The translations under genes were made by a program, and so were the position numbers. 64,000 nucleotides of DNA from Amphiura filiformis. Lineage: Eukaryota; Echinodermata; Ophiuroidea; Amphilepidida; Amphiuridae. Within the stretch, counting starts at the first letter, position 1; the number at the start of each line of letters is the position of its first letter. Below the pieces are notes generated by a model, which did not search any database, was not told the origin of the DNA, and worked only from the letters and a program-made list of their open reading frames with translations. The stretch is taken from NCBI RefSeq assembly GCF_039555335.1, contig NC_092631.1, positions 12,151,701 through 12,215,700 on the forward strand, written 5' to 3'. Shown piece after piece: positions 13,228 to 55,700 of this stretch.

Positions 13228-13930
13228 CGCGACTGACCAGGCTTTAAAATTAAATTACATAGAGTTTACACAGTGGTGTACATTCCATTGAAACACATAC
13301 ACATACACAGATATACACCGGGCCATGTGGCTAGTCTCTTTTACCGGCTCAGAGGAAGTACTCAATAATATTGCATTGTTGCATTCAATTCAGCTGCGTA
13401 TTCAGCGCGCTGCATCTGCTATAGAGATTAATCTTGTGGCCCTATCGGCGTTTCTAGACTTTGTCCGCTCTGACTTGGCGAAACTCAGCCTGGCGAAACT
13501 TTATGGCTGGCCATTGTGGTCAAAATGGTTGAAATGGTCTGACAAAAAATGAAAGAGAAAATCAGGAGTTTGTAAACCACTGCTTACAAACAAAACCAAT
13601 AATTATCTCTTTTTTGTGATATTAGCGTTCCCTTCTTCACCTTGAAGTTGAAAAAAGAAATTGTTTTTTAAGGGTGCCCTAGGGGTTAAAAATAGCCTGA
13701 CCAAAGTTACCCCACATTTGGGGCAACTTTGGACAGAGTATTACATTCCACAAAGAAAAAAAAATTCAAAAATTGAACTTCGCTGTATATGGGCAAGTTG
13801 TTGTTTTTTGTGACATTTGACCCCTTGCAAAATTAATCAAGCACACGTCCTTGCTCACATATATCGATTTTTATTTTTTCTGAAAAAGGTGTAGGCCTAA
13901 AAATATGCTAATTTTTGGCCAAAAATCCTG
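13228..13930. other. Upstream flank of AIMP2
   Basis: Presumably contains the AIMP2 promoter and 5' UTR for minus-strand transcription, but no TATA box or CpG-rich block stands out. No gene recognised. Confidence 0.35.
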
Positions 13931-13936
13931 ATTTTT

Positions 13937-14085
13937 TCGTAAATTTCGAGGAAATTGAACATGAGTGAGTATTAGGCCTATTTCTTCCAAATATATTTCT
14001 TAACAAATTGATTTGTTCGTAAATTTCGAGGAAATTGAACATGAGTGAGTATTATTTCTTCCAAATATATTTCTTAACAAATTGA
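13937..14085. repeat. Direct duplication of ~72 bp, one copy with an extra GGCCTA
   Basis: The block TTCGTAAATTTCGAGGAAAT ... TTCTTAACAAATTGA occurs twice (13937-14011 and 14014-14085). The copies agree except that the first contains TAGGCCTA (13973-13980) where the second has TA alone. Confidence 0.9.
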
Positions 14086-14130
14086 CACCAAATAGGGGCC
14101 TATGCCTATCAAAAACAATATTGCTGTACG

Positions 14131-15042: not shown

Positions 15043-15044
15043 CA

Positions 15045-16877
15045 CACTGCAAAAAAAAAGTGTTCTGAATTAGAACACTAAAAATTGTAACACTTATTGA
15101 ACATATAAAAGTGTACTGATTGTGAACACCAAGTGTTCCAGACTTTAACACAACAGTATAATTTGTGAACACGTGTGTTCACCTTTTGAACACTTGATGT
15201 TAACATATTGTCGTCATTTTGTGAACATGGTGTGTTCATGTTTTGAACACCTAATGTTAAAACTTTGAACACAAAGTGTTCCAAATCCTAACACATTTAC
15301 ATGTTCAATGCCATGTAACACTTTAAGAACACATTTACATGTTCAAAATCAAATGTGTTCAGCTTTAGAACACTTGTGTTCTAATCATTTAGAACACTTG
15401 TGTTCTAATCTTTGAACACTGAGTTGTGTTCACAAATGTCATACACTTAGTGTTCAAGTCTGGAACATATGACACTTAGGCCTACATATGTTCAATAAGT
15501 GTTACAAAAGGGATGCAATACGCCTACACAAAGCAAAGTACAATGGGTCAATGTATAAATGTACACCTTTGTCCGAAATTTAATTGTAACAACAGACTCA
15601 GTAGTAAATTACAGCAAACCTAGGGCTAGGCCTATGCATGTTTGACTAGTGCAACATCGCAATTACATCTATTCCATCAGGCATGCCATAGCATGAAATC
15701 GACCCGCATACTGACCAGTTGTAAGACACACTCGTCAGAGGTTTAGGCCTACAGTATAATTCACATTAGGCCTATATCAAATTGCAGATTTGCACACTGT
15801 CTGACCATGTGACTATTGCATGGTCATGATTGATAAGCTTACTGCGCATTCATTAAAATGCACTAAAACCACGCAATACAAAAACGATGAATTTACATTT
15901 TTAGTCTCGTTGTTCTATGATATGTGGAGAACACGTTCGATATATTTGTTTTTAAATAAAATGGTATTTTGTGGGTAAAATCTCACCTCCAAATCCCCGT
16001 CCAAATCGCGGTTTCTCACTCCGATGACATCGTCTGTTCTATTATACGGTGCAACGACGCATGCGTGGCCCAGCACGTGGTAAATATAGCCTACATACAT
16101 ACAGTGTTCAAAACGAACACATTACATGTTCATTCAGTGTAAAAGTTGTGAACACCTTTATGGGCGTGCACCCAGAGTTATTTGGAGTATAGTATAGGCC
16201 TAAATTTCAATATTCGACGTAAGCCTACCCCTATACATGTAATAGGCCTATTTTCAGGTATTTTCTATAAACCGCAAAATGTTCAATGTTCTTTCATTCC
16301 GTGCAAGCTGCAGGCCTGTGTAAAATAAAATGAGAACAACTGATGATCTCCATAATAGTAACCAATTATAAAAATGGTTTTACAATCAGGCGAGCATTTT
16401 ATGCTATATGCCTATATTAATAGTGTTGTGAAAATTGTAGATTAAACATACAGTGTTCATTTTATGAACATTTAGTGAATGATCAAACACTATGTGTTTA
16501 AAAGTTTCCTCTGACGTTATGTTACGAACACTAAGCATTACAAAATTGAATGCAGTATGTCAAATAGGCCTATATGTCGAATTTGAACAGGTGGTGTTCT
16601 AATGCTGAACATTTCAAACACTATGTGTTAAAAGTTTCCTCTGACATTATGTTACGAACACTAAGCATTCTGAAATTGAATACAGTATGTCAACATTTGA
16701 ACAGGTGGTGTTCTAATGCTGAACACTTCAAACACTATGTGTTTAAAAGTTTCCTCTGACGTTATGTTACGAACACTAAGCATTATGGTTACGAACACCA
16801 AGCATTATGAAATTGAATACAGTGTGTCAAATTTTGCACAGGTGGTGTTCTAATGTTGAACACTTTTTTTTGCAGTG
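15045..16877. mobile_element. CACTA-like non-autonomous element, 1,833 bp, GTGTTC subterminal repeats
   Basis: The ends CACTGCAAAAAAAAAGTGTTC and their complement are perfect inverted repeats. The dinucleotide CA flanks both sides (15043-15044 and 16878-16879), compatible with a 2-bp duplication. GTGTTC/GAACAC motifs, often paired as palindromes, fill the first ~430 and the last ~430 bases. A direct repeat of ~135 bp (GAACAGGTGGTGTTCTAATG block) lies at 16580-16860. CACTG ends, short duplication and dense subterminal repeats fit the CACTA/CMC superfamily by analogy. No transposase. Confidence 0.7.
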
Positions 16878-16879
16878 CA

Positions 16880-18389
16880 GTGAATTGAAAAGGGCGCGCT
16901 TCAAATTTGGCCAATTTTAAAAAACATCCATGTCGATAAATGAATTTCCTCATATGCTTCATTTATCCAAATTGTTTAAATTTTTAATATATGGTGTGTG
17001 AAGCCTTTCCGAGGCTAACAGCGGGTCCTCAAAAATTAAAAATTGTTTTGTTTAAGAGCTACTGCCTGTTTTTATGGATTTTTGAAGATCGCTGTAATCA
17101 GTAAATATAGGCCTATTGAAGTAAAGGGACCTACCACCATTTAGCTGAAATACTAATCTTTCTTAGCATGTAAATTATTTCCGTCGACAACAAATGAAGC
17201 ACTTCCCTAAAACTAGTTGAAGCAAAACATTAATCAATGATATTTTGGGGGAGTAATTTTCCAAACCACAATAGCTCTAAGCCATTGTGTGTGTCCAAGG
17301 ACATACTATTTTTGTATACGCGGTGCAGTAGAATGGGTGTTCCTTTTACCGATTTTCCTCCCTTGTTAATCCAGATGACAAAATGTTAATTTAAAGTCTC
17401 ATTGCAACTGAATTTTTATTTTTACTTTTCGGACTTGGCTTTGAGTAATGGTGACACATACCATGTTTACAGTAAAAATGAAAATTATATTCCAGACACC
17501 GTCAAAATGTCAAACTTTTTATATTTTTGCATTGTTTTTAAATAATTAACTGCAGTTCATTTATTCAACCTCATAACAGGATCATACTTAAAATTTATGA
17601 TGAATGAACAGACGTTCATTAAATATTGAAAAAAACCCAAAATTACTCATGCCTAATTTGCATAATAATATCATAAATACATAATTAGCTGTAATTACCT
17701 AATTTGCATAATTAATTACTTTTTGTGTATTTTTTGTTATCAATTGAAAGAACTTTGTAGAACTTTGTGCAAAAAAAACCCCGCACCTTTATCATGTACG
17801 GTTTTCTATTGGCATAAATTTTGCATATTAATTAGCTGAACTTAGTCATTTTTTGAGATTTAATTTGTCTGCAGATTGGCCGAAATTGCTAAAATAGTAT
17901 ATTTGGTTAATTTATTATAATTATTCAATGATACATTTTTAAATTTTGTTTTCTGTAACGAAGTCAGGAAAGATAGGCATTTAACATGTGATATTTAAAT
18001 TAACGCTGCTTTTTCATTTGTGGCAGGATTTCATTCCATCTACGAGCATCTTTAAATTGACACTACATCACAATGCATTGACCGATTTCAATTCTGTTTT
18101 TGATTTTTGATGCTTTAATAAAGCTTAATAATGTAGGAACATTAAATAACGTGTTTCTGCTGCGATTATTTTTGAGGTGATATGCCTATTTAAAGATAAT
18201 AAAGAAAATGTGCCCCGAAAAATAAAGAAAATAATAAGAAATTTGAACTGTATTTGTGACATAAAAATCGCCATTTTACATGCGATATTAATGGAAGAGG
18301 TGTCATTTTAAAGCTTTAAAACAGTCCTCAGCGTTTAGCATACCAGAGATGGTGCATGTCCAAGCATAATAGTCTTTACCCATAATGAG
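16880..18389. other. AT-rich intergenic, no gene
   Basis: Low-complexity AT-rich DNA with CCTAATTTGCATAATTAATTA-like stretches at 17650-17850. Nothing coding supported. Confidence 0.45.
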
Positions 18390-19699: not shown

Positions 19700-20435
19700 A
19701 TACCAAATCTCGCGCCAATCGACTCTTTAGGATTCCACGACTCTTTAGGATATTTGGTTAAAAAGATACAGGGTTATGTGCACTAAGTACAAAAAGTGAA
19801 TATCTCATTAACCAAACCTACAGATATGCGGCCACTGACCTTTTTGTTCCTTACGACCCACCGGAGGAAAAGTTTTTTTTTGTTCCTTATGACCAGACGA
19901 AAAGTTTGACATATAGCACGACTCTCTAGGATATTTGGTTAAAAAGATACAGAGTTAAGTGCACAAAGTACAATAAGTGACTATATCTCATTAACCAATG
20001 ATCGTGCAGATACGCGACCACTGACTTTTTTGTTCCTTATGACCAGAAGAAAAGTTTGACATATGACACGACTCTCTAGGATATTTGGTTAAGAAGATAG
20101 AGGGTTAAGTGCACAAAGACCAAAAAGTCATTAACCAATGATCGTACAGATACACGACCACTGACTTTTTTGTTCCTTATGACCAGACGAAAAGTTGACA
20201 TATAGCACGACTCTCTAGGATATTTGGTTAAAAAGATACAGAGTTAAGTGCACAAAGTAGGCCCTACAATAAGTGACTATATCTCATTAACCAATGATCG
20301 TGCAGATACGCGACCACTGACTTTTTTGTTCCTTATGACCAGAAGAAAAGTTTGACATATGGCACGACTCTCTAGGATACTAGTATTTGGTTAAGAAGAT
20401 AGAGGGTTAAGTGCACAAAGACCAAAAAGTGACTA
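19700..20435. repeat. Satellite array (~150 bp monomer), left block
   Basis: About five monomers marked by CTCTAGGATATTTGGTTAA at 19747, 19928, 20078, 20217 and 20374 (spacing 139-181 bp through small indels). Other marks: GACCAGACGAAAAGTTTGAC and ATCTCATTAACCAATGATCG. The array is cut at TA (20434-20435) by the large inverted-repeat element and continues at 35157. Confidence 0.95.
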
Positions 20436-21004
20436 GGGGAGAGCGGGGAGTGTTCGCCCTAGGGGCAGGTTCGCCCACCCCTTGTTTCTCAGCACTCTGG
20501 CTATCGGGGAATTTGGTGATGGCAAAATTAGATGACATAGGTCATTATAAACTTCTCATATTAGCTACGCGACATATATGGACGTGTTCATCGAACTACA
20601 ACCAAAAAAAAAAAAAAATTACACCAAAACGTATTTTGTTCTTGCATTCATCATGTTGTATTATCATTGATACATAAATACAGATGGTTTTAATGGAAAT
20701 CTGTATTGGGAACATATGGGATTTGTCAAAGATTTAATGCAGTTATAAACTCCTTATTCGATTTTTATTTTGCATACCCTGAAGAAAATACAAAAATGTG
20801 CACAAGGGGCACGTTCGCCCTTTTGATGATGGGGCATGTTCGCCCTATATCTTCCCCGGGCGGACTTACCCCAAACTGGAGGGCGGACCTGCCCCATCAG
20901 CGTATTATGCAAAATATTGATAATTATACCATTAAACAAGGTAAAACTACTGAAAAGCATGTTTTTTAAAGTCATGAGGTATTAGTATTACTCATACCAC
21001 CGTT

Positions 21005-21330
21005 TATGTATGGCACGCCAGAGTGGACAAAACCTTTAAAAAAAACCATCGAGAAAAAAACCACATTGAGAAATAAAAAACTCCATCGAGAAAAAAAATC
21101 ACATCGAGAAAAAAAAAAAAATCCCACCGAGAAAAAAAAATCACATTGAGAAAGAAAAAAATCCATCGAGAAAAAAAAACACATTGAGAAAGAAAAAACT
21201 CGACCGAGAAAAAAAAACTCACTGAGCAAAAAAAAACTCCAACGAAAAAAAACTAATCGAGAATAAAAAAAGTCATGGAGAAGTAAAAAAACCGCATCGA
21301 GAAGTAGTCTCCTCCGCAGTCAGTTTATTC
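21005..21330. repeat. Arm segment: CATCGAGAAAAAAA low-complexity array (left)
   Basis: About 14 units of a ~20-bp A-rich motif follow GGCACGCCAGAGTGGACAAA. The same block is inverted at 34376-34735. Open frames across it encode only Phe/Ser/Lys runs and are artefacts. Confidence 0.85.
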
Positions 21331-21609
21331 GAGTTGAGTCAAGTTTCACAGGGAAAATATGCCACATAGTGCCAGGTTGGCACTTGCCAACTGATGCCAA
21401 TGTGGCATTTGCCAGGTTCGGCCAAGAAGAATGTGCAAGGGGTACGCACAACCAGGCATTTGCAGTCACGGGCCAAATTGGCATTTGCCATCAATATCCA
21501 GAGTGTCAGAAATCATTGGCATCTGCCAATTGTACCAGGTTGGCAAGTGTCAATCTGGCAGGGGTTGGCATTATCATTTTTTGGTGATTTATAGATTTGT
21601 ATTATTTTT

Positions 21610-22290
21610 GAACAAAAATGAGATTTTTAGATGGTTTCCAGCGGTGGTTCCCAGTGTTTTAGGGTCCATATTGTTTTGAACATACAAAACATTGCATGAT
21701 CTTTTGTTTTCATTGGTTTTTGTAATTTGAATAAATCAAAACAATGATTTTGTATAAAAATGAGCTATTTCTGATGATTGAATTTCTTTTTCATGTGTTT
21801 TTAATTTTATTATTCTAATTTATTTTGGAACAAAAATGCAATTTTTGGATGGTTTCCTGTGGTGGTTCCCGGGGTTAGGCTCCAGGTCATTTTGATAATA
21901 ATTATGAATTTGCAGGTTTGTACTTTGATGTGTGTTTTTGTTATTTTGCAAGATTTAAATTATAATGGAACAAAAACAAAAATGCATTTTTGGATGGTTT
22001 CTTATGGTTGTTCGCGATGTTTTCGGTTCCGTGTTGTTTTGATAGTAATTGTGCATTGGTTGATTTGTGCTTTCATATGTTTTTGTTACTTTGCAAGATT
22101 TAAATTATTTTGGAACATTGAATGCATTTTTGGATGGTTTCCTGTGGTGGTTCCCGGTGTTTCGGCTCCGTGTTGTTTTGATAGTAGGCCTACTGGTGCA
22201 TTGGTAGTTTGGGCTCTCATTTGCAAGAATTAGGCCTAAATTATTTTGGAACAACAATGTATTGTTAGATGATTTCCTGTCCTGGTTCAC
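21610..22290. repeat. Arm segment: ~140-bp tandem repeat (left)
   Basis: Five units marked by TTTTTGGATGGTTTCC and GGTGGTTCCC (near 21625, 21842, 21986, 22129 and 22260). The inverted counterpart lies at 33150-33860. The long frame through it is repeat translation, not a protein. Confidence 0.85.
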
Positions 22291-22899
22291 GGTGTTTTCG
22301 GCTCCATTTATGCATTTTTAGATTTGTGTTCAGTCGTGAGCTCCCTCAAATGCTGTTGTATGTGAAAGAGCTCTAATGACAAATTATCATACCAAACCAG
22401 TAAATGTGCACGTCGCAAAAAAAAAAAAGTAGATTTAAGATTATTCAGATGAAAAATTAGTGTGTGTTTCAGTCAAAAGTAAGAAGAAACGCCATTAATA
22501 AACTTAATTTTTTGTTTGCAATTTAAATAACACAATCTTAAAAATCACAATGAAAGATAAAACGGTTTTGTACACAATACCATGGAAATGGTGTACATAT
22601 TGGCGTAAATCAACCGGGAGATTGACAAGTATTGGCGAAGATTAAATTAAATGAGATTTGAAATTTTCAGTCTTTTTTAAAATTTTGTTTACTTTTTTAT
22701 GGCTTGAAGAACTGAATCGCGTATTACGCAGCCCACCACTCGCATGGCGCAGAGCGCCACGCAAAGTTCATTGCGCGTACCGGCGCGTAATTTTAGCGCA
22801 ATCGCGGATAAGCCAAGTTGATTGATCGGTGACGCAAAATCACGCACGAGAAATGCATTATTTACGATCTGCATCATTTTCTAGCTCGGAAGGCGCGCG

Positions 22900-24420
22900 C
22901 GCAAATGGCTATCTTCTGAAGATAGCATTGCGGGCCTAATAAAGCAACAGAAAACATTTCACACATTTGAAAAACATCTGTTGTTAGGAAAGTTTGTTTT
23001 TGATGTGTTTTGTTTGTTTGTTTTTCCACTATCTACTCAAGATAGCGGTTTTTTTTATAATAAAATAGGCCTAAGAAAGTAAGAAAGGTTGACAATATTT
23101 TGTTATCTACCATTTGAAACCGTATGAACTAATTTTTAAAAAAAATCAAAGAAGTCGGAAATTTCATTTGGTATATTTTTTGTACTACATGTTTGTTGTT
23201 TGTTTGCTTGTTTGTTTGTTATCTACTCAAGGTAGAATTTACGGTGTGATTTGCAAATCATTATAGGCCCTTTGCGACATCACGAACCATGCATATGCTG
23301 TCAAAAAACGCGCTCAAATCCTACTTACGGCCTGCATCATTTTGTCGGCACTCGCAAACGGCTTTACGGGCTTAATAAAACAACGCAGAAAATATTTCAC
23401 AAATTTAGAAAACGTCTGTTAGGAAAGTTTGTTTTGATGTTTTTTGTTTGTTTATTATTATTTGCCTGCTTGTTAGTTTTTCCGCTATCTACTCAAGTAA
23501 AATACAAAGAAATTGAGAAAGGTTGAATATATTTTGTCAGGCCTATCTACTGATGATAGCATTATAAAACCTAATGAAATAATACAAAAAGAAGGAAATT
23601 ATAAGACTTAGCATGAGACGAGTCAAAAAGATAATTTGATATGTTTTTGTATATTTCATGTTTGTTTGTCTGTTTTTTGTTTTTTGTTGTTTTTTATCTA
23701 CTCAATATAGGCCTACCATTTACAGTGCGATTTGCAAATCACCCGTTGCGACATGCATCTGTGAACACGCACGAGCCCACTTACGGCCTGCATCATTTAC
23801 GATCTGCATCATTTTCTCGGAACGCGCAAACGGCTATCTTCTGAAGATAACATTGCGGGCCTAATAAAGCAACAGAAAATATTTCACACATTTAGAAAAC
23901 ATCTGTTAGGAAAGGTTGTTTTTGAGGTTTTTTTGTTTGTTTGTTTGTTTATTCCGCTATCTACTAAAGATATTTTTTTGTGGATAAATTACAAAGAAAG
24001 TAAGTAACAAAGGTTGACAATATTTTGCTATCTACTGATGATACCATTTGGAACCGTATGAACCAATTTCTTGTTTGTTTGTTATCTACTCAAGGTAGAA
24101 TTTACGGTGTGATTTGCAAATCATTATAGGCCCTTTGCGACACCAAGCATCATCTGCTGTCGAAAAAACGCGCTCAAAGCCTATTTACGGCCAGAAAATA
24201 TTTCACACATTTGAAAAACATCTGTTGTTAGGAAAGTTTGTTTTTGATGTGTTTTGTTTGTTTGTTTTTCCGCTATCTACTCAAGATAGTAGTTTTAAAA
24301 TAAAATAGGCCTAAGGTCTAAGAAAGTAAGAAAGGTTGACAATATTTTGTTATCTACTGATGATACCATTTGAAAGCGTATGAACTAATATTTTAAAAAA
24401 ATCATAGAAGAAAATATTTC
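22900..24420. repeat. Arm segment: TATCTACTCAAGATAG tandem units (left)
   Basis: About four units of ~400-450 bp, each with TTTGTTTGTT runs, TATCTACTCAAG, a GCAAATCA...GCGACAT block and AAATATTTCACA. The inverted counterpart is 28010-29221, continued at 31420-31483 and 32345-32580. Confidence 0.85.
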
Positions 24421-26547
24421 ACAAATTTAGAAAACGTATATAGCCCCAGACAAGCAACGTGTATAAGTAGGCGTAAAACTAATTTTGGTGGGTTTAATTA
24501 AAATGATCTTCGGTTTATATATCAGGTAAAAAATGTACCAGTGTATATTTGAAGAATTAATACTTTCCAGCTAAATCATGAAACGTTTCATAATATTTTA
24601 AAAAGGCCTACTAACGGTGCCTTAAATTAAATATTGTTGTATACGTTTTTCTAACATTTTCACAAATCATATCGGCTTACTGTCAATATCAATACGGCGT
24701 ATTTTTATTCATAAACAAAACATTGATTATAATAAAAGTATTTTGTCAAAATCGGTAATAAATTAATTTAGGTTTTCTATTAAATATGTAAAACAAATGT
24801 TAAAAAATGTTTTTAATAATTTGTGTTTGCTGGGTTCGTGCAAGATCTCGACAGACAAAATTCGTTGTATTTTATTAAGTGGCATTATTTATTATAAAAG
24901 CATTATTTATTATAAGGGCATTAAGGGCGTGTATAGGCTATAATCTTAAAATACAGGGTGATTTAAAATGAACTGTACCCAACTTCAAAAATTAAAATAA
25001 AATACTTACCGACATTTAAATAATTTGTGTTTGTAGGCTGTAACAGGATAGTATGTTTTCTATTATTGGTGAAAAAATCATGTCTTTACCTCTAATGGTT
25101 TGGACGAAAAATACATTCTTAGAAAACACACCAAAAACGATGTTGCACACATGAGTATTTTAATCAAATATTCTGTTCTACAACGGTTTGATCACTCAAC
25201 TGCCCTCAGACGCTTTTAGTTCAAAATAAATTGCGCATGTTTAGTTAAAAATGAAAATAAGATGAATTGATAAATGAATAAAATTAAAATTAAATACTTA
25301 CCGACATTTAAATAATTTTATGTAGCAAGCTGTAATTATGTTTCCTATTATTTGTGAAAAATTCTGTTCTCAATTACGAGTGGTATTGCACCAGCACCAT
25401 TTCTATTTGCATTTAAATTTCCCTCTACAATTTCAAGTCAACGAGTCCTTTGTTCTACATGTATTATTTACATGTAATCTTTGGAAACCTGACATTGTCA
25501 TAACCATCATAATATATTCAATTTAGTGATACAAAAGTTCAGCAGTTTAAAAATTGTAAAATGTATACGACATCGTTTTGTGTCAATTTTTATTTATTTC
25601 GTTTGTACATAAATTAACACGGAATAAAGCTAAATTAACTTTGAAATCTGATTTTCTCAAAATCAACTGATTTTACAAAAATGATGTACGACAAACAAAA
25701 AATGATTATGTCGAATAACACCAATAATGAAACTGCTGTTGAAATATTAACCATCAAACGGTAGGTCTGCTCGACTCATCTTACTCATGGTTGTAAAAGA
25801 AATAGGCCTATGTAGCCCCCCCCCTCAACACAAAGGTTGACAACCACGAGAGTAACCAAATCTTTCAAAGATCCCTTTGCAATGATTTTTCATCAAATTT
25901 ACCCCCTTTTTCATGCAAATTCGAGGTCAACAAATTAAATAGACCCTACACCATATTTTGCCAATTTCACGATCCTTGCTTAGACTGGATCCTTCAGTCT
26001 TTCAACAACTACGCACGGTCATCAGGTTAAGGCAATGTGAAGGATTGTGGGTAAATAAAAGGCGCCGCCATTAGAGGCCAGAAGGATTCAGGCTAGTCCT
26101 TGCTGCTGGTAAAAAAATAACCCCTTTTCCGCGCAATTTCAATTTGGTAACTCTCATGGTTGTCAACTTTTGTGTTGACTAGGGTGCCTGGGTAGGCCTA
26201 AGGCCTATGTATAGTCATTTTCAAATAACCGCAATCTACAGCTGCTAGTATAAGTTCTGAAGAAAGTTTTATATTTTTTGCTGACATTTACCCGAACATT
26301 TATTTTAACCTACGTCATGTATATTCCTGAAAACAGTCACCAGCATGAACTTTTCAAATAATTTAGCTATTCTATTTTGATAATTTCATAATAGTTGAAA
26401 TTGTAACAAACTGACATAAGAACACCCCAATTATGTTTTACCTTTTCATTCCTATCGTGCTTTTAAACCTTTAGATCATTGAGCTGCTGAAATATGCTTA
26501 TCATACGAGTACGAGTTTAGCGAAAATAGTGAATCATACAAGTATTA
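24421..26547. other. Central spacer of the giant element, no gene
   Basis: AT-rich. ACTTACCGACATTTAAATAA is duplicated at ~25003 and ~25298 within a ~290-bp direct duplication. A MITE lies at 25826-26177. No transposase-like protein found. Confidence 0.5.
25826..26177. mobile_element. MITE in the spacer
   Basis: Inverted ends of ~34 bp: CAACACAAAGGTTGACAACC and GGTTGTCAACTTTTGTGTTG with ACTCTC/GAGAGT beyond. About 352 bp, no ORF. Confidence 0.75.
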
Positions 26548-26551
26548 TTAA

Positions 26552-27990
26552 CGTGGCTGTGTACTCTACTCCCCATTCCAGAAAAATACAGAACTATTTT
26601 TTTTGAATAAAAAAAACATTATCCTAGTAATAAAAGTCAAATTTTGATATCTAGCCACTTTTTGAAAATAAGGGCCAAAAACATGCGTTTTTAGGGTGTT
26701 TTCCGTATGTTGTGATAATCAAGCCCAAAGACTTGAACTAAGAATAATAACATTTTATGCCTTCTAATTTTGGAAAAGACATGTTTCATTCTTATATAAA
26801 GCAACCATTTATTAAAGTAACACAAAAAAGTGAAAATTAGATCAAAATTTCGGCATATACTGAAGATTTTAAATGCTTAGATTTGTTCCAAGTTTGTGAT
26901 TTTCGTGACTCGGTTGTCAGAAAACATGCCGAAAATGCAGGTTTTTGGCTCTTTTTCAAGATATTAGTGAAATAGTGAACTTTTTCTTTTATCTCCAGTT
27001 AGGACTAACTAAAGGATTAGGATTTAGCTATGTTTCATTTGCCAAAACAGGATAATATTTTTTAATCGCAAAAAAATTAGTTCTGTATTTTTCTGGAATG
27101 GGGGTAGACACTGTTTCTTTCATGAAATTGAGTTTTTGAAATGTATTTACTTTGTTATGTTTTTCATAAATACAAGAAAAAATAATCCAGATTTGTTAAC
27201 TCTAACTGTTCTATTTTATGGATTTTATTTCACTATTTCACTTGTTTCCGCAATTTAGAAGGAAAGGAAATCTTTTGTTGTACCATCGGGGTATTACGCG
27301 AGGAACAAAACATCGCGTTTTGTAGTCGCGCAATTTGTTAACGCACGGATACGCTACGCATACGCAACGATTATCTGCATGCGCGGCGCATCTTATGGAA
27401 GCACCACGGAAGCACTGATTTCAAAAAAACCTTGCGGTCAAAGGGCTCCGTTTTAGCTACTGTGATTTTTTTTTTTTTTTTTTTCTTTCCCCCGATTTTA
27501 ACATCAAGATGTGAAAAGATTTCGCCCAAACTTCTCAAGGGGCTGTGGATTTACTCGATGTTCACGTAATGTAAGGAAGAAAGACGAGAAATGCCACATT
27601 CTCCTGTGATCTTTGATCAAAGTGCAAAATGTGACCACTTTAAACTTCAACTGCCTTTATTTCAATGTTCATTTTCTCGGTAAAATGACGATTTAGGTAC
27701 ACGATAACTCAATGAATACAGCATTTATTAAGCAATTGTGCTCATCATAAAACGCATGATCGACTTAAGAAACGTTTTTCTCATTTTCTTATATTTTAGT
27801 CTATTTCCAATTTTAGGCATCATTTTGTGCAAATAGGCGTTTGTGAATTTTAAAAAGTACATTTTGATGCTTTATAGGCCTATGGTCAATATCTCAAAAA
27901 ATAAGGCTAATATCAAAAACTAAAAAATTTTGGAAAGAGTGTTTTTTTGTTATGATGTACAGAACAAAAATTGTCAAAAATTCATTTTTG
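26552..27990. mobile_element. TTAA-flanked element, copy 1, 3'-truncated and interrupted
   Basis: Starts after TTAA (26548-26551) with CGTGGCTGTGTACTCT. The body matches 29548-30652 and 48274-49379 (ATTGAGTTTTT, ACTTCTCAAGGGGCTGTGGAT, GGTACACGATAACTCAATGA) but ends near 27990 without the 3' terminus. A 536-bp MITE splits it at 26569-27104. Confidence 0.75.
26569..27104. mobile_element. 536-bp MITE with TA duplication
   Basis: The ends CCCCATTCCAGAAAAATACA and TGTATTTTTCTGGAATGGGG are inverted. TA flanks both sides (26567-26568 and 27105-27106); the sister copy at 48274 has an uninterrupted TA here. Confidence 0.85.
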
Positions 27991-28009
27991 TAGGTAAAAA
28001 TCAAACAAA

Positions 28010-29221
28010 TAAAAACAGACAAACAAACATGGAAAATACAATAATATACCAAATTATCTTTTTTGTATTATTTCATTAGGTTTAAAAATGCTATCACCAG
28101 TAGATAGGCCTAACGAACAACCTTTCTCAATTTTTTTGTATTTTACTTGCGAAAAACTAACAAGCAAACAAATAAATAAATAAACAAACAAAAAACATCA
28201 AAACAAACTTTCCTAATAGACGTTTTCTAAATTTGGGAAATATTTTCTGGCCGTAAATAGGCTTTGAGCGGGTTTTTTTGAGCAGATGATGCTTGGTGCC
28301 GCAAATCACACCGTAAATTCTACCTTGAGTAGATAACAAACAAACAAGAAATTGGTTCATACAATTCCAAATGGTATCATCAGTAGATAACACAATATTG
28401 TCAACCTTTCTTACTTAGGCCTACTTTCTTTGTAATTTATCAAAAAAAAAAAATCTTTAGTAGATAGCGGAATAAACAAACAAACAAACAAAAAACCCTC
28501 AAAAACAACCTTTCCTAACAGATGTTTTCTAACTGTGTGAAATATTTTCTGTTGCTTTATTAGGCTCGCAATGTTATCTTCAGAAGATAGCCATTTGCGC
28601 GAGCGCCTTCCGAGAAAATGATGCAGATCGTAAATGATGCAGGCCGTAAGTGGGCTCGCGCGTGTTCACAGATGCATGTCGCAACGGGTGATTTGCAAAT
28701 CGCACTGTAAATGGTATCTTGAGTAGATAAAAAACAAAAAACAGACAAACAAACATGAAATATACAAAACATATCAAATTATCTTTCTGACTCGTCTCAT
28801 GCTAAGTCTTATAATTTCCTTCTTTTGTATTATTTCATTAGGTTTTATAATGCTATCATCAGTAGATAGGCCTGACAAAATATATTCAACCTTTCTCAAT
28901 TTCTTTGTATTTTACTTGAGTAGATAGCGGAAAAACTAACAAGCAGACAAATAATAATAAACAAACAAAAACATCAAAACAAACTTTCCTAACAGACGTT
29001 TTCTAAATTTGTGAAATATTTTCTGCGTTGTTTTATTAAGCCCGTAAAGCCGTTTGCGAGTGCCGACAAAATGATGCAGGCCGTAAGTAGGATTTGAGCG
29101 CGTTTTTTGACAGCATATGCATGATTCGTGATGTCGCAAAGGGCCTATAATGATTTGCAAATCACACCGTAAATTCTACCTTGAGTAGATAACAAACAAA
29201 CAAGCAAACAAACAACAAACA
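28010..29221. repeat. Arm segment: TATCTACTCAAGATAG units (right, inverted)
   Basis: Reverse complement of ~23180-24300, high similarity. Small differences include TAGGCCTA at 28416-28423 (absent at the matching left-arm site) and its absence near 28715 (present at 23708). Confidence 0.85.
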
Positions 29222-29547
29222 TGTACAGTCGGAGGGCCATCATGCGCGTTTTCCGTTAAAGGTCAAATTATTAACGGACGCGACCTTGGCAAAAATGACC
29301 GTCGCACTCTTGGGTATGCTTTTTACTTTTCCCGCGAAAATTTCGATTTGAAATGTATCGTATTATGTGTAGCCAATCATCTTGGGCAATTAACAAATAA
29401 GTTTTATTAGAAAATATCTTCACAATTCTCTACTTGATTTCCATTTTGTCTACTTTTGTCGTTAGAATTCGTGATTTTTGCGTTTGCTTTACCTTCAAAA
29501 TTATTTTCGTTGCTAAGGACTTCTAACCCGGATATTTTCTGTCTTAA

Positions 29548-30652
29548 CGCGGCTGTGTACTCTAGCCATTGTTTCTTTCTCAAAATTGAGTTTTTTTGAT
29601 ATGTTTGTACCTTGTTATGTTTTTTATTATTACAAGGAATGAAAATCCAGATTTGTAAACTCCAACTGCAATATTTTAAGGATTTTATTTCACTATTCCA
29701 CTCGTGTTTGAAATTGAAAAGGAAAGAAAATCTTTGTTGTACCAGCAAGGTACACTCGCGCAACAACTCATCGCGTTGCGTATCGCGCAATTTGTTAACG
29801 CACAAATACGCGACGCATACGCGACGCTTATCTGCATGCGCGGCGCATCTTATGGAAACACCACGGAAGCACTGATTTCACAAAAACCTAGTGGTCAAAT
29901 GGCTCCGTTTTAGCTGATAAAATGTGGGTTTTTCAAGTTCTTTCCCCGATTTAAATATCAAGTTATGAATGGATTTCACTCAAACTTCTCAAGGGGCTGT
30001 GGATTTACCCGATGTTCACGTAATATAAGTTACAAAAACGAAAACTGTCGCATTCTCCTGTGAGATTCGATGAAAGTGCAAAATGTGACCACTTTAAACT
30101 TCAACGGCCATTATTTCAATGTTCATTTTCTCGGTAAAATGACGATTTAGGTACACGATAACTCAATAAATACAGCATCTATAGGTAAGCAAATATGATC
30201 ATCGTAAAAAGCATGATCGACTCAAGAAACGGTTTTCTCATTTTTTATATTTTGGTCTATTTCCGATTTTGGGCATCATTTTGTGCAAATAGGCGTTTTT
30301 GAATTTTAAAAAGTTCATTTTGATGCCTTATGTGGTCAATATCTCAAAAAATAAGGCCAATATCAAAAAAATAAAAAAAACGTTTTTGGAATGAAGCCTC
30401 AAGATTGAGCTAAAAACAAAATAAAATATTTTGGAAAGAGTGTTTTTTGTTATGATGTACCTAACAAATATTGCCAAAAACTCACTTTTTGTGATTTTCT
30501 TCAAAATTGTTGTTTTTACCCCAAATCTGTATTTATATTAAGATTTATTGATGTCTTGCCTTCATAAAATGTATACTTTTATATGTTTTGCGCGAATAAT
30601 TACAAAGTTATTGCACTTTTACTACATGCATGTCTGAGAGTACACAGCCACC
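29548..30652. mobile_element. TTAA-flanked element, copy 2 (complete, 1,105 bp)
   Basis: Flanked by TTAA on both sides (29544-29547 and 30653-30656). Inverted ends CGCGGCTGTGTACTCT and AGAGTACACAGCCACC. Nearly the same length and sequence as 48274-49379. TTAA targets are used by the piggyBac and Kolobok groups; which one applies is not decided. No intact protein. Confidence 0.85.
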
Positions 30653-30656
30653 TTAA

Positions 30657-31415
30657 CGCTTTAATCATTCTAATTTTTAGCCAGACAAGTAATTTCAACC
30701 TTTATCTATCGATTAGTCTTTGTCCCAAATTTTGAACTTAAAATTCTAAATTGTTATAGTTTAAATTGGTTACCCAGATTAGGCCCATCGACGAAAATTA
30801 AGTAAACAACTTCATAACAATACCGCGTGACTTGACACCATGAACGAGTACACGCGCGTGACTTTGTTGCGCCCAAGCGCGCCATTCATCTGCGTTCAGT
30901 GAAATACGCGCGCGCAGTTTAACACTGCTCGCATGAACCTTCTCAATCCTGTTGTCGCATGGCCTACTGTTTACTGGTATTTTTCCGTCTTGTAAAATAC
31001 CCTTTTCATCCCGGCAGGTTTTTGTCTTAACCAACCAAAAATCTAGATTTTTTAATATGAGGATAATAAGCCATGTTTCTAATCATATGCAAATTCCTGA
31101 TTTATGAACTCGCACCATTTTTAAAATAACGCAGTTTTTCTTACTCTTTTATCTCAATTCATGACAAAAATTTGTGTTTATGTGCCCATATCATATTCCT
31201 TGCAAAGTTACGGTATTTTTTGTGAACATATATGGAATGTTGAAAGCCTTTCTTGTAGTTATATATAAAATATATAGCTATTAGGAGTTGTAGAGAGAAA
31301 TTTGGAAGCTTTTAAAACTGCAACCCAAATCAAGCAAATTTAAATTTTCGTTGTGTGCGTATTCATAGCGTACAGTTTAATAATAGCGCGTCAAAGTTGA
31401 ATGGCCCTCCAACTG
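30657..31415. other. Remainder of the CAGTCGG element, non-coding
   Basis: GC-richer patch at 30820-30960 with GCGCG tracts, then AT-rich. No protein recognised. Confidence 0.4.
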
Positions 31416-37646: not shown

Positions 37647-39150
37647 TATGTAGGCCCAAATTCACTGAGGAAATTGTTGGTCGCCGCCCCGGAGCCCCGT
37701 TGTAAATGCCAAAAAAGGCAATTTTTCGGCAATTTTCCTACGGGATTGTCTAAATTCTGCCATTGATTGGGGCCACGTGCCCCCCCAGTGCCCCTATGAC
37801 GCAACGCCACTTTACCATAAATCCCATATATCCGCCCTCCCAGGCGAGACGGTACTATATCCGTGCCCAAAATTGCTTGCCCCCCCCCTCCCCCCTTCGA
37901 CCTGCCAAAATATCACTTGACCCCCCCCCCCCCTATAATTCACCACCCCGGGGTAGGCCTAGGCCTACACATTGCACCACCCCTAAATATCATGAAATCG
38001 CACACCACCACACAGTGTCTTCGACCCTATATCTTCATGGCAGGAATCGCCATGGTAGGTTAAATCCACAGCCACGATTAGCCATTTGGTTCAAACCTTT
38101 AAAGCTCTTTTAAACTAATAATTAGTCGAGGGACATAACTAAGGCTACTCACAATAGCCGGGTAATCGATCTTGGTTGTGCGTGATTAAGCTTGTATACC
38201 CCATTGAGGTCAATGGTCATCGACTTTTATACTGCCTACAGTGAGTGCAGCTGTACTACACGCTGCACGCTGTAGTCCATAACAGGACCAACGCAATATA
38301 AAATGGTCAAATTTTGAGTTCAAAGCGCACGGCCAATTTTCAAAGCGCATTCTAGCGACTATCATATCTGTTCAACACGTATTTCCAAGTTTATGAGACC
38401 AAATCTGGTTTCTTGAGAAAAAAATCATGACGGGAGATATTCATCATTTTCTAACCCGGTATCAGAAGATTTTCGTCTGATATCAAAATCGTGCATAGCA
38501 ATTCACGTGTATCGATCCCGTGTATTCATTTTAGTGTCCCTTCTGCACCAAATAATTATTAGCCAGGCGGTGTCGGTGTGCACCATGCATAAATGAGGCT
38601 CAGACAGACTCAACCATCACGCGTATCGCCATTTCAGACGTCCTAAATTTAGGCTTATAATTATATTTTCTTAAAGTAGCAACAGGTCGAGAAAACGTCG
38701 ATTGATCGCAAATTACGCGAAGCGCAGTGTGTGAGCGTTTCAAACAACCATGATATGAACGACGATCTGTGATTGGTTGTAGTGAAAAAGGCATACACCT
38801 TGGTAACATCTTTTACAGCTTTCCGTGACAAAAAGAAAAGTTTATATATTAATGATTTACATGTTTTAAATAATTGCAAACCATTTATAGACAGTCTTGC
38901 TTAAAATGCTTCGATTTTGATGATACAATCAACGTTTAGCTACTTAGTTAAACAACCAATCACAGTGGATGATAATTGTATGTAGGCTGATTTCGTCTTT
39001 GATCATATTTTGCGGCTTTTCCGAACATGACCCGGGCTCCAGATAGAGCTGTCACAATACCTGTATGAGCAGTATCACAGTCATGAGGGGAAACCCCAAC
39101 AATCTAGATGTTTTCTAGGCGAAATCGAGCAAAAATAGGATTCCGACAAG
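37647..39150. other. Intergenic upstream of BPTF
   Basis: 37880-37935 are C-runs. The rest has no recognised gene. 38570-38800 is GC-richer but shows no conserved frame. Confidence 0.4.
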
Positions 39151-49700: not shown

Positions 49701-52700
49701 ATTACTTACCACTTACTTACTTTCTATTTTAGTATTAAAATACTTGCTATTTTAGTATTAAATACTTGGATGTGATAAATACCAACATATTGATTGTTCT
49801 GAAGTGGGTGTCTCATCAACATGTTTAGATAATTGCTTCATTTATTAATATTTGTTTAATAATATTATAATTTCTTCAACTCCTATACAGATGAGCTGCT
49901 TGCTATCATAAAAGAGCGTGAAGAAGCAGAGGCTGAGAAGAGACAAAAGGAAGAAGACGAAGCTAAAAAGAAACAGGATGAAGAGGAGGCAAGGAAGGCC
50001 ATGGAAGAAGGCAAAACAACTGGAGAAGAGATAAAAACAGACTCTCAGGAATCAAATGGTGATAAAAAGACTGATAATGAGTCTAGTAAAGCTGATGATG
50101 GAACCAATGTGGAAGTTGACCAATCTGGGGAAGAAATTACCAAAAATAAGGAGGAGGATGCATCAAAAGGCAGTGAACCAGTAGGAGAAGCCACTGCTAG
50201 TGTTAGTAGTGCACCATCAACATCAGAAAACAAAATGGACACTGAGACTAAAATGGATGCTGATAAAGGTGATGCTAGTATAGATCATTCTAGTGAGGAT
50301 AAGACAACAGACAAGGTTACCAATGGTGAGGGAGAAAGTAGTAATAAGGAGTGTGTTAAAGATGATGATGCTAAGGCTGATGATATGGAGAAGAATGCAG
50401 ATGCCATGGAGACAAAAACAGAAGGTAATTGTATTCTGTAGGTTTCCATTATAGGCTGGTAGAAATGTACAAGTTCATTGACCTTATTCTGCAATAATGA
50501 AAATTTGGGAACAGGCTGTTTGTTTGAAACATCATTAGTCTGATGAGTGCTATAAGTTAGGGTTTACGTAATTACAAATTTACATTATTTGCACCGAAAA
50601 TGGGTTTCTTTGTTTAGAGGTTAATAATAACTGTGCATCAGATATTTGGAGGGCACTGAGAAAAATCATTTTGCCTTTGGAGCTGAGGAATATCCTGATG
50701 CCCCAAGGGATACACTTATCTATAAACTTAAGCACTAGAGTACTACTGCTTGTGATTTCCACATGACAGGAATTTTCCACATGGCTGTGTTTATACCAAA
50801 ATTGATGCCAACTTCTTTTTGAGATGGTCAGAACAGAGCTGCAGCTAGCAACAGTGTTACTGATTGCTGTATTTTCGGAGATGTACAATTAGATCTAAAA
50901 AGGGATTGGCTGATCTGTCAATTTTGTGAAGAGATCTGCAGTGCAGATCTTGGGCTGGATCTGCCTGCACTAGAGAGCCCCTGATTGGTTAATTATAATC
51001 AAAATAGAGCTTAATCTCTTAGCAATTTTAAGCTTAATCCCTTTCAGCTGTACCGACTATTACCATATCTGATGGAACAATATGATATACCCCTTTTTGT
51101 AACCAATCAGAGTAGTTTATTTTTAGAAGCTGGTAATGTGACTGTTACTGCCCATCAGGTTGTAGGCCTATACATGTATAGTATGTAACTGAATAAATTA
51201 AATGTGTGTGCTTCTGAATATCAAATTTTGCAGAAAATAAAGACGAGGGAGAATCTCATGGTGTGATGACACGTTCTCGCAATCCCAACTACAAGCCTCC
51301 TCCACCTAAGAGCTCTCCATTTGTGAACTACTCCACCTCAACTCCTGTTAGGAAGGCTGTGGATTCGGATGATTCTGTCTTGGTTATCAATGCGAAGGGG
51401 GAGATCAAGAGAGTTGAGAGTAAGTTTGTATGTGTTTTTTAAATTAATAACCCCCATCGTCCCACAAACCTGACAAATTTTGCGATGATCCGGGTTCAAA
51501 ATTCGGCAACCTACATGACGGCACAACAGTCTGCGGGAATACCATGAAAGCGATACGAACTGGCAATGAACAGACATGAGATTTTTCCTAAAATATGACC
51601 GTAAAGTTGCCGTACAATTTTGATTGGCATTTCGCAACCCCTTGTCTTAGTACTGGACTGGTTGATGCCTCATTTTAAGCCTAATTGTATGATTCTCTAA
51701 GTGTGCTAAAACTTAAAACAATGCAGTTTTCAATATAAAAACCACATTAATGTAAGAGAAAAATGTCAGGGGTGGAGGAACAGGCGGATGCGGTAATGGT
51801 GGTTTTTGGCAAAGTTTTTAAGCGTATCTTCATAACTATATGGCATTGGGCTGGTTAATGTATAATATTGTCAATATTATGTACCTGGGTATAATTAGGG
51901 AACAAAAAACAATTTACAACATGGTATGGTCATGTCTTTTGGCATCGGGTGTACACTTTTTCTTATTTATCTTATTTTATTTTGAGCTAAAGTTACAATA
52001 TAAAACATTAAATAATGACCCAACCACAAGAAAAGTATTTTTCACACATGTTCTGAAAGGAAATTGCATGAGGAATCTGAATATTCCATTAAAAAAATTG
52101 TTGGAGATAAAAAGAAAAAATTTATAGCCAAAAGTTGCCAAAAATTATTTTTGAATTAACTTATTTTTTGTGCACCTTGTATTATCACATGTTTACTAAT
52201 GTACAATTTATTCAAGTTGCTTAAGGGCTGGGGTATGAACGTTTGGACAGTATTTATTTTGGGACATTAGAGCACATCAGACATATCGAATTGCATTCTG
52301 AATACGAAGAATGTCATTCTGATATCAAATAATTTTGATTTTTTGAAATTCGCAATTTAATACACATTTTATGGCAAATCATTAAAATTGATATTTTTGA
52401 TATTTAACAGTACTTGAAGTAAACTTTATAAATCTGATGATTTATACTTAAAGTGTATGTAGGTGGGATGAAAAGCCGAAGATCAATAGAAAAATTTGAC
52501 CTTTTGTATTGAAGATATGGATTTTTTCCCAAAACACCAAAAAAAAAAAATTAGGTCTTTTTGGGAAAAAATCCATATCTTCAATATGAAAGGTCAAAAT
52601 TTTCAATTGACCGTCGGCTTTTCCTCCTGCTACATACACTTTAAGAATATATCATTAGATTTATATAATTTACCGAGGACTGTTATATATCAAAAATTTG

Positions 52701-55700
52701 AAAAATATCAAATTTTTATAATTTGTCATAAAATTTGTATTATATTGTGATTTAAAAAAATTAAAATTATTTGATATCAGAAAGACATGCTTCAGTATTC
52801 AGAATGCAATTCGATAGGTCTGAGGTGCTCTCATGTCCCAGAAAAAATACTGTCGAAACGCAATAAACGCTCATTTTGGATCCCTTAAGTGAAGCAAAAT
52901 TAAACTGAAAACATATCCTCCAAATTTTATACATAAGGTGCAAACAATAAAAAAAATTACAAAATACAAATCTATGGCAACCTGTCAAAAAGTAAACAAA
53001 AGAGCAAATATAAAATAAGGGAAATTTTGAAAAGCCACAGGCCTAACAAAAAGGATGAACCACAGTCAGTACCATCACCTAACTGGCATTAGTCAAATTA
53101 TTCAAGTTGAATTTTGTCTTCATACAGGTAGAAAGGCAGAAAACCAATCCCTGGGATTGACAAACATCTCTATCAATGTTGGTGACTCTGACTTCCGTCT
53201 TGGAATGGAAGGTAACTACAAACTGTACAAGAATCAGTACAGCTGCAGTAGACTTGGTCTCAACAAACCACAGCATGCTGAGCTACGCGACAAAACCAGA
53301 TACCTCTCACACAAATTTAGTCTCACTCAGCTGTCCGAATTCAAGTGGAATGGAACGGTTTATGGCAATAAGATTCTCACAATATCTACGTTGCGCCTGA
53401 GCATCACACAATTGGAGACAAATATCACCAAGCCATTTATGCATACCAACTGGGCTGTACATAGAAATAACTGGATCAAAGCTGTACATATGTGTAACAA
53501 GCCACATGTAAGTAGAATTTGTACCATCATGGTTTGAGTTCTGAAAATACAAGGCGTGCTACAAATCGCACTCCTTGAAATGTTAAGGCGAGCTGTCAGG
53601 TGTGCTATAATTTGCACTTGTGGAAAAGCTAAGCTCTGGACGATTTGTAAAGTGAACTATAAAACGCCCCGGGTGGGCAATTTTAAGGTGTGCCCTGCGG
53701 GAGCGTTGCACTCACTCAACTCAAAACCTGTACCATAATAATTAAATGAAAAGGATCTACAAGCTAGTGAAAATACTCAACATTAATTAGGATGTATTAT
53801 CCCATGTATTTTCTCCTACCGATCATGGTCCCTAGGGGCACAAAATGTAAGTGTCATTATGGTGCTTCTCAGCATCTAAAGCAGCAATAGGCCTAGGACC
53901 AACAGGACCAGAACTTGGTATACTGATATCACTTGGTCCTCATACATGTATATTCTCAGGGACGAGGGGTCAAAATAAATTTGTTATGAGGGGGGTATTT
54001 CCTTTTTTAGCCAAAAAAGCCCTCTAGTATTTTGTTTAGGGGCGATTTTTAGGTTCCAAGGGGCTACTTTGGTTTTACTTTGGAATATGAATTATAAGTT
54101 TGTCAAGTAATTTAGCTTATTTTGAAACTATTTGTAGTATTTTAATTACATGTACATTGTACCCGCAAAAGTAGATGAGAACCCATGATTTTCATACAGG
54201 TCTCCAGGGCCTAACATTGAGCTAACATTGTGTTGTTAAAGCTTCCAAATACGGTATCCTCTGATCTCAGAGGTCTCATTGAGGAAACTTGGTGAAGGAG
54301 GTGATTGTGAATGTGAAGCTAATTGTAGTGCTTTAACAGAGCTGCATCCATGATTAATGCTAATGGTTTGTGGAGTAAGAGTTGTAAAACAAACTTGATC
54401 GCTTCAGCCGAAAAAGTAAATGAGGAGGAAAGGAAAAAAACCCGTGAAAAAACCAGGCACTCGCTAACAAGAGATCCGGTTGGTCCGAGCAGCCTGGCAA
54501 AGTTGTAAGGCAGCCAATCAAGAATGCTGAGGGGAAACAAGCCCTGCCGCAGTTACTACCTCACAAGGGTGACATTACTGATATGGCTGGAGCTGAGGTA
54601 ATTAATAGTAACCGCCTTACTCCCCCGAACATCAAGAAAAAAAACCAGCCAAACCTAAACCAAACAGGGAGACCCCATGAGACCCAAGTTATTAAAAACC
54701 GCACTTAATATAGGTTCAAGGTTAACCCAGCACTATAATCATTCTGTTTTTATATTTGCACTATATAGGAGTTTGCCCTAGCATTGTCTATCTTGGAATG
54801 TGCAATCAAGCCAGTCATCTTCAACCCTGTATGGTCAGAGACCCTTGGTCACACCACCTTGATGAGAACCACCGCCATGGAGAGGGAAGAGAAAAAAAAA
54901 GCAGACAGGAAGAGGAAAGATTATGATCCATATGATGATATTTATGCAGACAGAAGCACATGGGTCAAATGTAGCTTCCCTCTTAAACATTCGGTAAGGA
55001 AGCCAAACTAGTTTACTGTGGGAGGGGGTTTGTTTGGCTTTATAATTGGTGAAAAAATGAGTCTCTGAACATCATGTATTGATATAGAAAGACATGCATG
55101 CAGTTGGGCCAGCATTTTACACTAATTGCGTGTTGCATAATGCGTACCTTTGGACTTTATTGATGTACGAAGTAACGAAATCCGAATAATGTTCGCCAAT
55201 TATAAGCCAAACTACTGCATTTTAGAGATTGTGATGTTTTCTGCATACACTGTACACCAGTTCATTGATTTACCTTGAGTATGTGTAGAAGTATATGGAG
55301 CCAATATATGCGATAAGTATCCAAGCCTAACAACTAAACACCTAACAAAAAAACAGATAAATGCAACCAAAACAAAAAGCAACGTATACAATGATGAATA
55401 GCTTATGTACAAGAAGGTTTTTGTGTCGCCTGAATAATTCAGGAAGACACTAAAGTTTGTTCGGCTTATAATAGTGTATTGATATAGAATGGCATGCACG
55501 CAGTTAGGCAATGTGCTTGCGCTAGTTGCGTGTTGCGTAATGAGTGACTAGCGCACGCTTATGTGATTTTGGTTTAAAATGGCCTCACATGAAAAGTTCA
55601 AATCCAATTGCAACTAAACTTTAAGTCATAGCTGCAATATCGGAACTGAAATGTAATGGTGGAATTCAGGGTCTCATACTAAAAAAAGGTCACATTTTTG

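Follow-up and report, generated by a model that had tools for sequence, protein, structure and literature searches.

A TA-flanked palindrome in the genome of Amphiura filiformis as a probable transposon excision scar

A 64,000-nucleotide stretch of the ophiuroid Amphiura filiformis (assembly GCF_039555335.1, contig NC_092631.1, positions 12,151,701 to 12,215,700), here called the window, contains 32 copies of the palindrome TAGGCCTA, a GGCC core between two TA dinucleotides, with the first copy at position 13892 and the last at 53888. Judged by their arrangement and by comparisons between repeat copies, these words are probably scars left on excision by a TA-inserting cut-and-paste DNA transposon with GG...CC ends, two bases of each end staying behind. 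Once a cut-and-paste element has left a site, its excision is normally difficult to detect. If the interpretation is true, a uniform, dense palindromic scar would mean that an assembled genome is enough to count and date excisions and to reveal families of which no copies are left. The scars would also be informative about germ-line joining of short overhangs that do not pair, and they would account for an over-represented palindrome that might be mistaken by motif finders for a regulatory site.

Abundance and presence/absence of the palindrome

In 100 dinucleotide-preserving shuffles TAGGCCTA reached a mean of 0.59 and a maximum of two copies, and in 300 order-2 Markov simulations a mean of 0.5 and a maximum of four, expected counts here and below being modelled on the 64-kb window itself and the sites being spatially non-independent. 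By excess over the order-2 expectation, TAGGCCTA ranks first among 8-mers with at least four occurrences. An earlier sequence-only reading of this DNA had counted at least 25 copies against roughly one expected; the count is in fact 32 against about 0.6. The longer variants TAGGCCCTA (20258) and TAGGGCCTA (36509 and 37354) are found where that reading had placed them, TAGGGGCCTA at 14093 is additional, and TAGGGCCCTA has zero occurrences in the window. As also claimed earlier for recognised coding exons, none of the 32 copies lies inside the five exon-like frames examined.

Four copies (33268, 33220, 32400 and 24306) are arm or repeat-unit copies of other sites, the related sets being 22185/33268, 22231/33220 and 23066/32400/24306. 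This leaves 28 independent sites, or 31 when the three 5-base variants (20258, 36509 and 37354) are included and 14093 is not counted. That most sites were copied inside larger duplicated blocks is very improbable: the four copies and a surplus of close pairs (seven within 60 bp against 2.1 expected, P 0.002) would agree with such local multiplication, but just 11 of the 31 independent sites have a paralogue across the motif in the window while 20 have none, flanks appear unrelated, and 28 independent sites still stand against about 0.6.

The GGCC excess requires flanking TA. Between TA flanks the core occurs 32 times against 0.6 expected, and with the fifteen other flanking dinucleotides zero to three times each. 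Other cores counted between TA flanks are CATG (15 against 2.4), CCGG (4 against 0.5), AGCT (5 against 0.8) and TGCA (5 against 2.0). Taken together, C/G-containing TA palindromes with 4-base cores number 66 against 10.3 expected, and without TAGGCCTA they still number 34 against 10.0 simulated, with a maximum of 23 in 300 simulations. There is no excess for 2-base cores (16 against 16.2) or 6-base cores (5 against 3.6), and TA palindromes with 8-base (4 against 1.2) and 10-base cores (3 against 0.4) are few and include overlapping copies. High cells with small counts are also seen with non-TA flanks (AG-AGCT-CT, 3 against 0.4; GC-GCGC-GC, 3 against 0.2), single cells that are easily over-read.

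For eight of the eleven sites with a paralogue, a sister copy carries plain TA (13973, 20258, 22185, 22231, 23708, 27875, 28105 as judged by eye, and 28416); bases of the terminal type, which would derive from an element, here stand between two TA dinucleotides where the sister has one. The other three are unclear: 15477 aligns poorly, 16565 is part of a 16-bp difference that includes a duplicated neighbour, and for 23066 there is no well-aligning motif-free sister. Among the pairs proposed by the sequence-only reading, 13973, 22185, 22231, 23708 and 28416 do face plain TA, 22231 most cleanly in the other arm's copy, and the 20258 variant is indeed missing from sister monomers, three of which have plain TA. 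Sites 27875 and, by eye, 28105 extend this list. The proposed origin of the palindromes by insertion of GGCCTA at TA is supported, and so are the TA duplication and the two-sided symmetry. At 20258 a gain would be the simpler reading because several sisters are without the insert. At 16565, TAGGCCTA is flanked by two TATGTCRAA copies where the sisters have one, which might represent a scar containing templated filler.

Indels of 2-15 bp with at least 6 of 8 matching columns on each side were collected from the 76 of 104 self-alignments that reached at least 72 percent identity. Eight of the nine clean 6-bp indels between window paralogues consist of TA against TA-palindrome-TA, representing seven independent events: six have a GGCC core (13973, 22185, 23708, 27875, 28416 and 33268, with 22185 and 33268 being one event) and two a CTAG core (20378 and 35305). 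The insertion process extends beyond GGCC, because CTAG insertions are seen as well. TA duplications are absent from the 56 indels of 2-4 bp and the 18 of 8 or 10-15 bp; other TA-type indels are TAAATTA (1 of 11 at 5 bp), TAGGCCCTA and TAAGGTCTA (2 of 6 at 7 bp) and TACTGATGATA, found twice (2 of 3 at 9 bp). The TAAGGTCTA difference, at 24311, adjoins a TAGGCCTA.

These comparisons bear directly on the least probable explanation considered, namely that TAGGCCTA is an 8-bp motif subject to binding or selection, or that the palindromes were perfected by mutation (template switching). The small number of surplus decayed forms could mean conservation, but at TA the paralogues are separated by a single six-base step rather than by point changes, which contradicts such an origin at the sites with clean paralogues. 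Moreover, the GGCC core is not enriched with other flanks, and several sites are located in satellites and repeat arms.

Scar shape, proposed mechanism and known systems

Scars can be written as i+j, the numbers of bases of a GGGG... end retained on the left and right. The 2+2 shape dominates, with 32 copies against 0.57 expected, followed by 3+2 (2 against 0.13), 2+3 (1 against 0.13) and 4+2 (1 against 0.03), so that 2+2 makes up 32 of the 36 scars retaining at least GG and CC. The 3+1 form TAGGGCTA occurs twice against 0.52, one instance overlapping a TAGGCCTA. One-sided forms are at expectation in the window (TAGGTA, 14 against 15.3; TACCTA, 15 against 13.5), as are the shorter TAGGCTA and TAGCCTA. 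In all four longer variants only the G or C run is lengthened (GGCCC, GGGCC twice and GGGGCC), as GGGG...CCCC ends predict, and G-run slippage could give the same result.

Under the proposed mechanism, an element with GG...CC ends would duplicate TA upon insertion. During excision the transposase would cleave flush with the 3' ends but two bases inward of the 5' ends, each flank retaining a GG overhang. Because GG cannot pair with GG, end joining would keep both overhangs and fill across them, yielding TA-GG-CC-TA. Cuts three or four bases in would give the rare TAGGCCCTA, TAGGGCCTA and TAGGGGCCTA, and other terminal dinucleotides (CT; perhaps CA, CC and AG) would likewise give TACTAGTA, TACATGTA, TACCGGTA and TAAGCTTA.

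An alternative that dispenses with the polymerase step, and which we regard as unlikely, is that the transposon end itself starts with the palindrome GGCC, whose 4-base self-complementary overhangs anneal and are ligated to give TAGGCCTA, with CTAG, CATG, CCGG and AGCT ends behaving alike. This would account for the uniformity of the scars, and the enriched TA cores are indeed 4-base palindromes. However, the four variants lengthen a G or C run, as predicted by GGGG rather than GGCC ends, and a scan for paired ends (described below) recognised no GGCC-starting element with a TA duplication, the GGCC-starting pairs sitting in the arms of a large inverted repeat or matching mainly through GGCCTA.

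The cuts assumed for a GG-ended element have precedents in published accounts. In Tc1/mariner excision, one strand is cut flush with the 3' end of the element and the other two to three bases inward of the 5' end (PMC2170065), and 2- or 3-base 3' overhangs are left (PMC3878927, PMC7827188). The ISY100 transposase (IS630/Tc1/mariner) makes its 3' cuts precisely at the element's ends and its 5' cuts two bases further in, the stagger implied by a 2+2 scar, but in the test described rejoining gave the predicted TATATA junction and no filled palindrome (PMC2170065). Animal Tc1/mariner elements (Sleeping Beauty, Frog Prince, Mos1, Himar1 and ZB) share the TA target, the TA duplication, the few terminal bases left behind and end joining (PMC3878927, PMC7827188). 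For Stowaway, Osmar5 and Ppmar2, studied in plants and yeast, two-sided end remnants of one to four bases between TA are reported (PMC9632168), and the TACT...AGTA reported for Stowaway (PMC1925063) matches in shape the two TACTAGTA insertions (20378 and 35305); plant footprints vary in length at one site, in contrast to the single dominant form in this animal host. PIF/Harbinger and ISL2EU (PHIS) elements also have G-rich ends, with GG(G/C)CC given for Harbinger in a rice table (PMC4423477), but their duplications are described as TWA and AT (PMC4482050), not TA. We take the prevailing 2+2 form to be a variation on an already described type of trace. Among the literature matches listed, by title and start of abstract, no paper containing the string TAGGCCTA, transposition and echinoderm papers included, treats it as a transposon scar, and none was found on palindromic TA scars as over-represented words.

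It is possible, though rather doubtful, that TA-inserting families in this animal generally leave a scar of the form TA-xy-YX-TA, xy being the terminal dinucleotide, in which case host end joining would keep and fill both 2-base overhangs and TAGGCCTA, TACATGTA, TACCGGTA, TAAGCTTA and TACTAGTA would be the scars of five families. TA-palindrome counts would then serve as a family-by-family census of past excisions, including families of which no copy survives. Given the excess of TACATGTA, TACCGGTA and TAAGCTTA, this scar shape may be left by more than one family; the window's paralogues span none of these three words. TACTAGTA occurs twice, an excess that is not significant (58 of 300 simulations reach two) although both were seen as insertions. 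Two points speak against such a general scar: GGCC and CTAG alone are seen as insertions, and beside TACCGGTA the dispersed words TACGGTA (8 against 2.0) and TACCGTA (5 against 1.7) are over-represented (together 13 against 3.7), so that scars of a CC-ended family would depart from a strict 2+2 form. TA-CGG-TA and TA-CCG-TA are possibly a second, 3-base scar class. TACGGTA is located at 31209, 36237, 36374, 42162, 44655, 45981, 54250 and 59166, and TACCGTA at 11812, 12726, 42546, 43181 and 57470.

The 14.7-kb element and the distribution of scars

A 14,721-bp element with GGGG ends is present in the same stretch. Its termini begin GGGGAGAGCGGGG, and its perfect 26-bp terminal inverted repeats are of the kind found in Tc1/mariner elements. 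The empty site is preserved in sister monomers as GTGAC-TA-TATCTC, and TA stands on both sides of the element, again as for Tc1/mariner. The sole Pfam report for its reading frames is CBM39 (E 0.033, below cut-off), and the element may be non-autonomous. The sequence-only reading had named it as an element that would leave such scars; its GGGG ends, TA duplication and location fit this role, and its family could be the source family. No word starting GGGG stands in the main text of a survey of pogo-like elements (PMC7325037), and no exact match to the first 24 bases of the element end exists in viral_contigs. Other assignments of 20436-35156 were rejected on the duplications described in PMC4482050: ISL2EU requires AT within A|AT|T and the element duplicates TA, and PIF/Harbinger requires a 3-bp TWA and the flanks CTA...TAT share TA only.

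Apart from this element, the scan for TA-GG...CC-TA elements (16 bases, up to four mismatches) returned pairs that we put down to weak chance similarity, to dispersed repeats in opposite orientation (such as 42383/51681, one mismatch), to the word GGCCTA or to the arms of the large inverted repeat. This inverted repeat lies within the element (21347-24390 and 28066-34110), its outer arms being 97 percent and its inner arms 89 percent identical; the outer arms have three scars in common and the inner arms differ in theirs. A second G-rich end, GGGGAAGGTGGGG, ends at 37640 and abuts the TAGGCCTA at 37641. Ten of its first 13 bases are identical to the element end, a weak likeness given that a plain G run at another end also reaches 10 of 13. 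The segment 37396-37640 contains three GGGGCAAAACGG in both orientations and one GGGGCATAACGG, ends CCCC-TA beside the scar and looks like pieces of nested G-rich-ended elements.

The scars are strongly clustered. Within one 24.1-kb stretch lie 29 of the 31 independent sites, compared with a mean of 16 and a maximum of 24 in 5000 random draws of TA sites. TACATGTA is spread out, with 4 of 15 copies inside 13892-37967 against 30 of 32 for TAGGCCTA (Fisher P 5e-6). Flanking TA is found on 13 of 62 sides of the sites, compared with 7.9 percent for plain TA, which is no more than suggestive of a target preference. Clustering would fit local hopping of one family, but other element copies must be involved, because 9 of the 31 independent sites lie inside the 14.7-kb element. 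One-mismatch relatives of TAGGCCTA number 23 against 13.0 expected, and those of TACATGTA, TACCGGTA, TAAGCTTA and TACTAGTA are near expectation. If the ten surplus relatives are decayed scars, the scars average about 4 percent substitutions per site in age (10/32 divided by 8). The scars look young, and conservation would give the same picture.

Several observations weigh against excision as the origin of TAGGCCTA. In the parts of the literature drawn on here, animal footprints are shorter or more variable than 2+2: they keep up to three bases (PMC9632168), for instance C(A/T)GTA or, for ZB, zero to three (PMC7913693), whereas here four bases, two per side, dominate (32 of 36) and one-sided forms are not in excess. 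A uniform filled product is in itself unexpected, because GG/GG overhangs are unpaired, unless repair is unusually faithful here. In the earlier attribution to Tc1/mariner-type excision, insertion at TA, the TA duplication, the symmetry and the predicted formula all fit the sequence, but four kept bases are not the usual animal outcome. No transposase was found, as 20 element reading frames (77-179 aa, inside or over the edge) gave no Pfam match above cut-off. Among the window paralogues aligned, no site is occupied by an element. Nine independent sites inside the 14.7-kb element would derive from other copies, and the concentration of sites in 24 kb is unexpected if the process acts genome-wide, unless there is regional bias or local hopping. 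Finally, two-copy pairs may reflect the loss of six bases between two TA dinucleotides.

Just one complete TA element with GG ends was recognised, compared with 28 independent TAGGCCTA sites, which, with the lack of an occupied site, the modest surplus of one-base-off relatives and the young look of the sites, would also suit a TA-cutting enzyme, either an abortive transposase or a host enzyme, that adds four bases where a full element was never present. We consider this quite unlikely: many scars per element are inherent in cut-and-paste hopping, the G-run variants indicate a GGGG terminus, and we know of no TA-cutting enzyme that makes such micro-insertions.

Gene context and further features

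The TAGGCCTA-rich stretch lies upstream of a BPTF/NURF301-type gene, represented by exon-like frames on the plus strand between 39321 and 57754. The first exon frame (39321) matches proteins named BPTF with a DDT domain, the best match being 70 percent; we take the later exon-like frames to belong to BPTF/NURF301 as well. In a quick tree built from 23 of the 120 matching proteins listed, the 39321 frame grouped with six others, away from the sequences of arthropods, molluscs, annelids, a coral and a gecko. Tandem-repeat fields in the gene region, at 46600-47720 (TTAGAGATAGCGAACC type) and 59900-62000 (GGTCATCTGAGGTCA and related types), are free of TAGGCCTA.

A 1.1-kb repeat is present in three copies (29544-30657, 48270-49384 and 27084-27938). 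The two longer copies start with TTAA, finish with TTAAC and have inverted GGCTGTGTACT-like ends; this repeat presumably resembles a TTAA-duplicating (piggyBac- or Kolobok-type) non-autonomous element.

In public collections, a pattern of three close TAGGCCTA was found in 11 viral and 27 prokaryote stretches; no animal DNA was recognised among these 38, many of which are short tandem arrays. A viral-collection contig (L007:4561-4793) carries seven TAGGCCTA in about 230 bases and is not a simple tandem array. Within the window, the overlap arrangement of TACCGGTACCGGTA at 4155 is that of TAGGCCTAGGCCTA at 37954. The 14093 variant has a single weak paralogue across the motif (72 percent, 57227-57282). 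Coordinates are collected in Table 1.

Table 1. Palindromic sites and element boundaries in window coordinates; no strand applies to any row.
Feature	Position	Observation
TACCGGTACCGGTA, overlapping copies (4155, 4161) of another enriched TA palindrome	4155..4168	exact words
TAGGCCTA	13892..13899	no paralogue in window
TAGGCCTA	13973..13980	sister 14009-14085 has plain TA
TAGGGGCCTA, 4+2 variant	14093..14102	outside the 31 counted sites
TAGGCCTA	15477..15484	poor paralogue alignment
TAGGCCTA	15627..15634	exact word
TAGGCCTA	15744..15751	exact word
TAGGCCTA	15767..15774	exact word
TAGGCCTA	16195..16202	exact word
TAGGCCTA	16243..16250	exact word
TAGGCCTA	16565..16572	within 16-bp difference with duplicated TATGTCRAA; unclean case
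TAGGCCTA	17108..17115	exact word
TAGGCCCTA, 2+3 variant, satellite monomer	20258..20266	three sister monomers have plain TA
TACTAGTA, CT..AG core	20378..20385	plain TA in six sister alignments
Left TA of the element's target duplication	20434..20435	flank comparison
14,721-bp element	20436..35156	26-bp perfect terminal inverted repeats GGGGAGAGCGGGGAGTGTTCGCCCTA; inserted at satellite-monomer TA
TAGGCCTA	22185..22192	sister tandem units have plain TA; one event with 33268
TAGGCCTA	22231..22238	plain TA in sister units 33370 and 33515; one event with 33220
TAGGCCTA	23066..23073	common to 32400 and 24306; no well-aligning sister without motif
TAGGCCTA, left arm	23708..23715	right arm (28670-28755) has plain TA
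TAGGCCTA	24306..24313	repeat copy of 23066
TAGGCCTA	25803..25810	exact word
TAGGCCTA	26193..26200	exact word
TAGGCCTA	27875..27882	other two repeat copies without motif: plain TA in 49013-49103, TG in 30286-30378
TAGGCCTA	28105..28112	decayed TAGGCCTGA in 23494-23590 and 28823-28918; one sister AGATAACAAAATATT; insertion judged by eye
TAGGCCTA, right arm	28416..28423	left arm (23956-24047) has plain TA
TAGGCCTA	32400..32407	arm copy of 23066
TAGGCCTA	33220..33227	arm copy of 22231
TAGGCCTA	33268..33275	arm copy of 22185
Right TA of the element's target duplication	35157..35158	flank comparison
TACTAGTA	35305..35312	two sister monomers have plain TA; two more sisters differ in other ways
TAGGGCCTA, 3+2 variant	36509..36517	exact word
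TAGGCCTA	37232..37239	exact word
Three clustered TAGGCCTA (37310, 37326, 37341)	37310..37348	exact words
TAGGGCCTA, 3+2 variant	37354..37362	exact word
TAGGCCTA	37641..37648	abuts second GGGG-type end (...CTTCCCC to 37640)
TAGGCCTAGGCCTA, two overlapping copies (37954, 37960)	37954..37967	exact words
TAGGCCTA	51163..51170	between exon-like frames
TAGGCCTA	53888..53895	between exon-like frames

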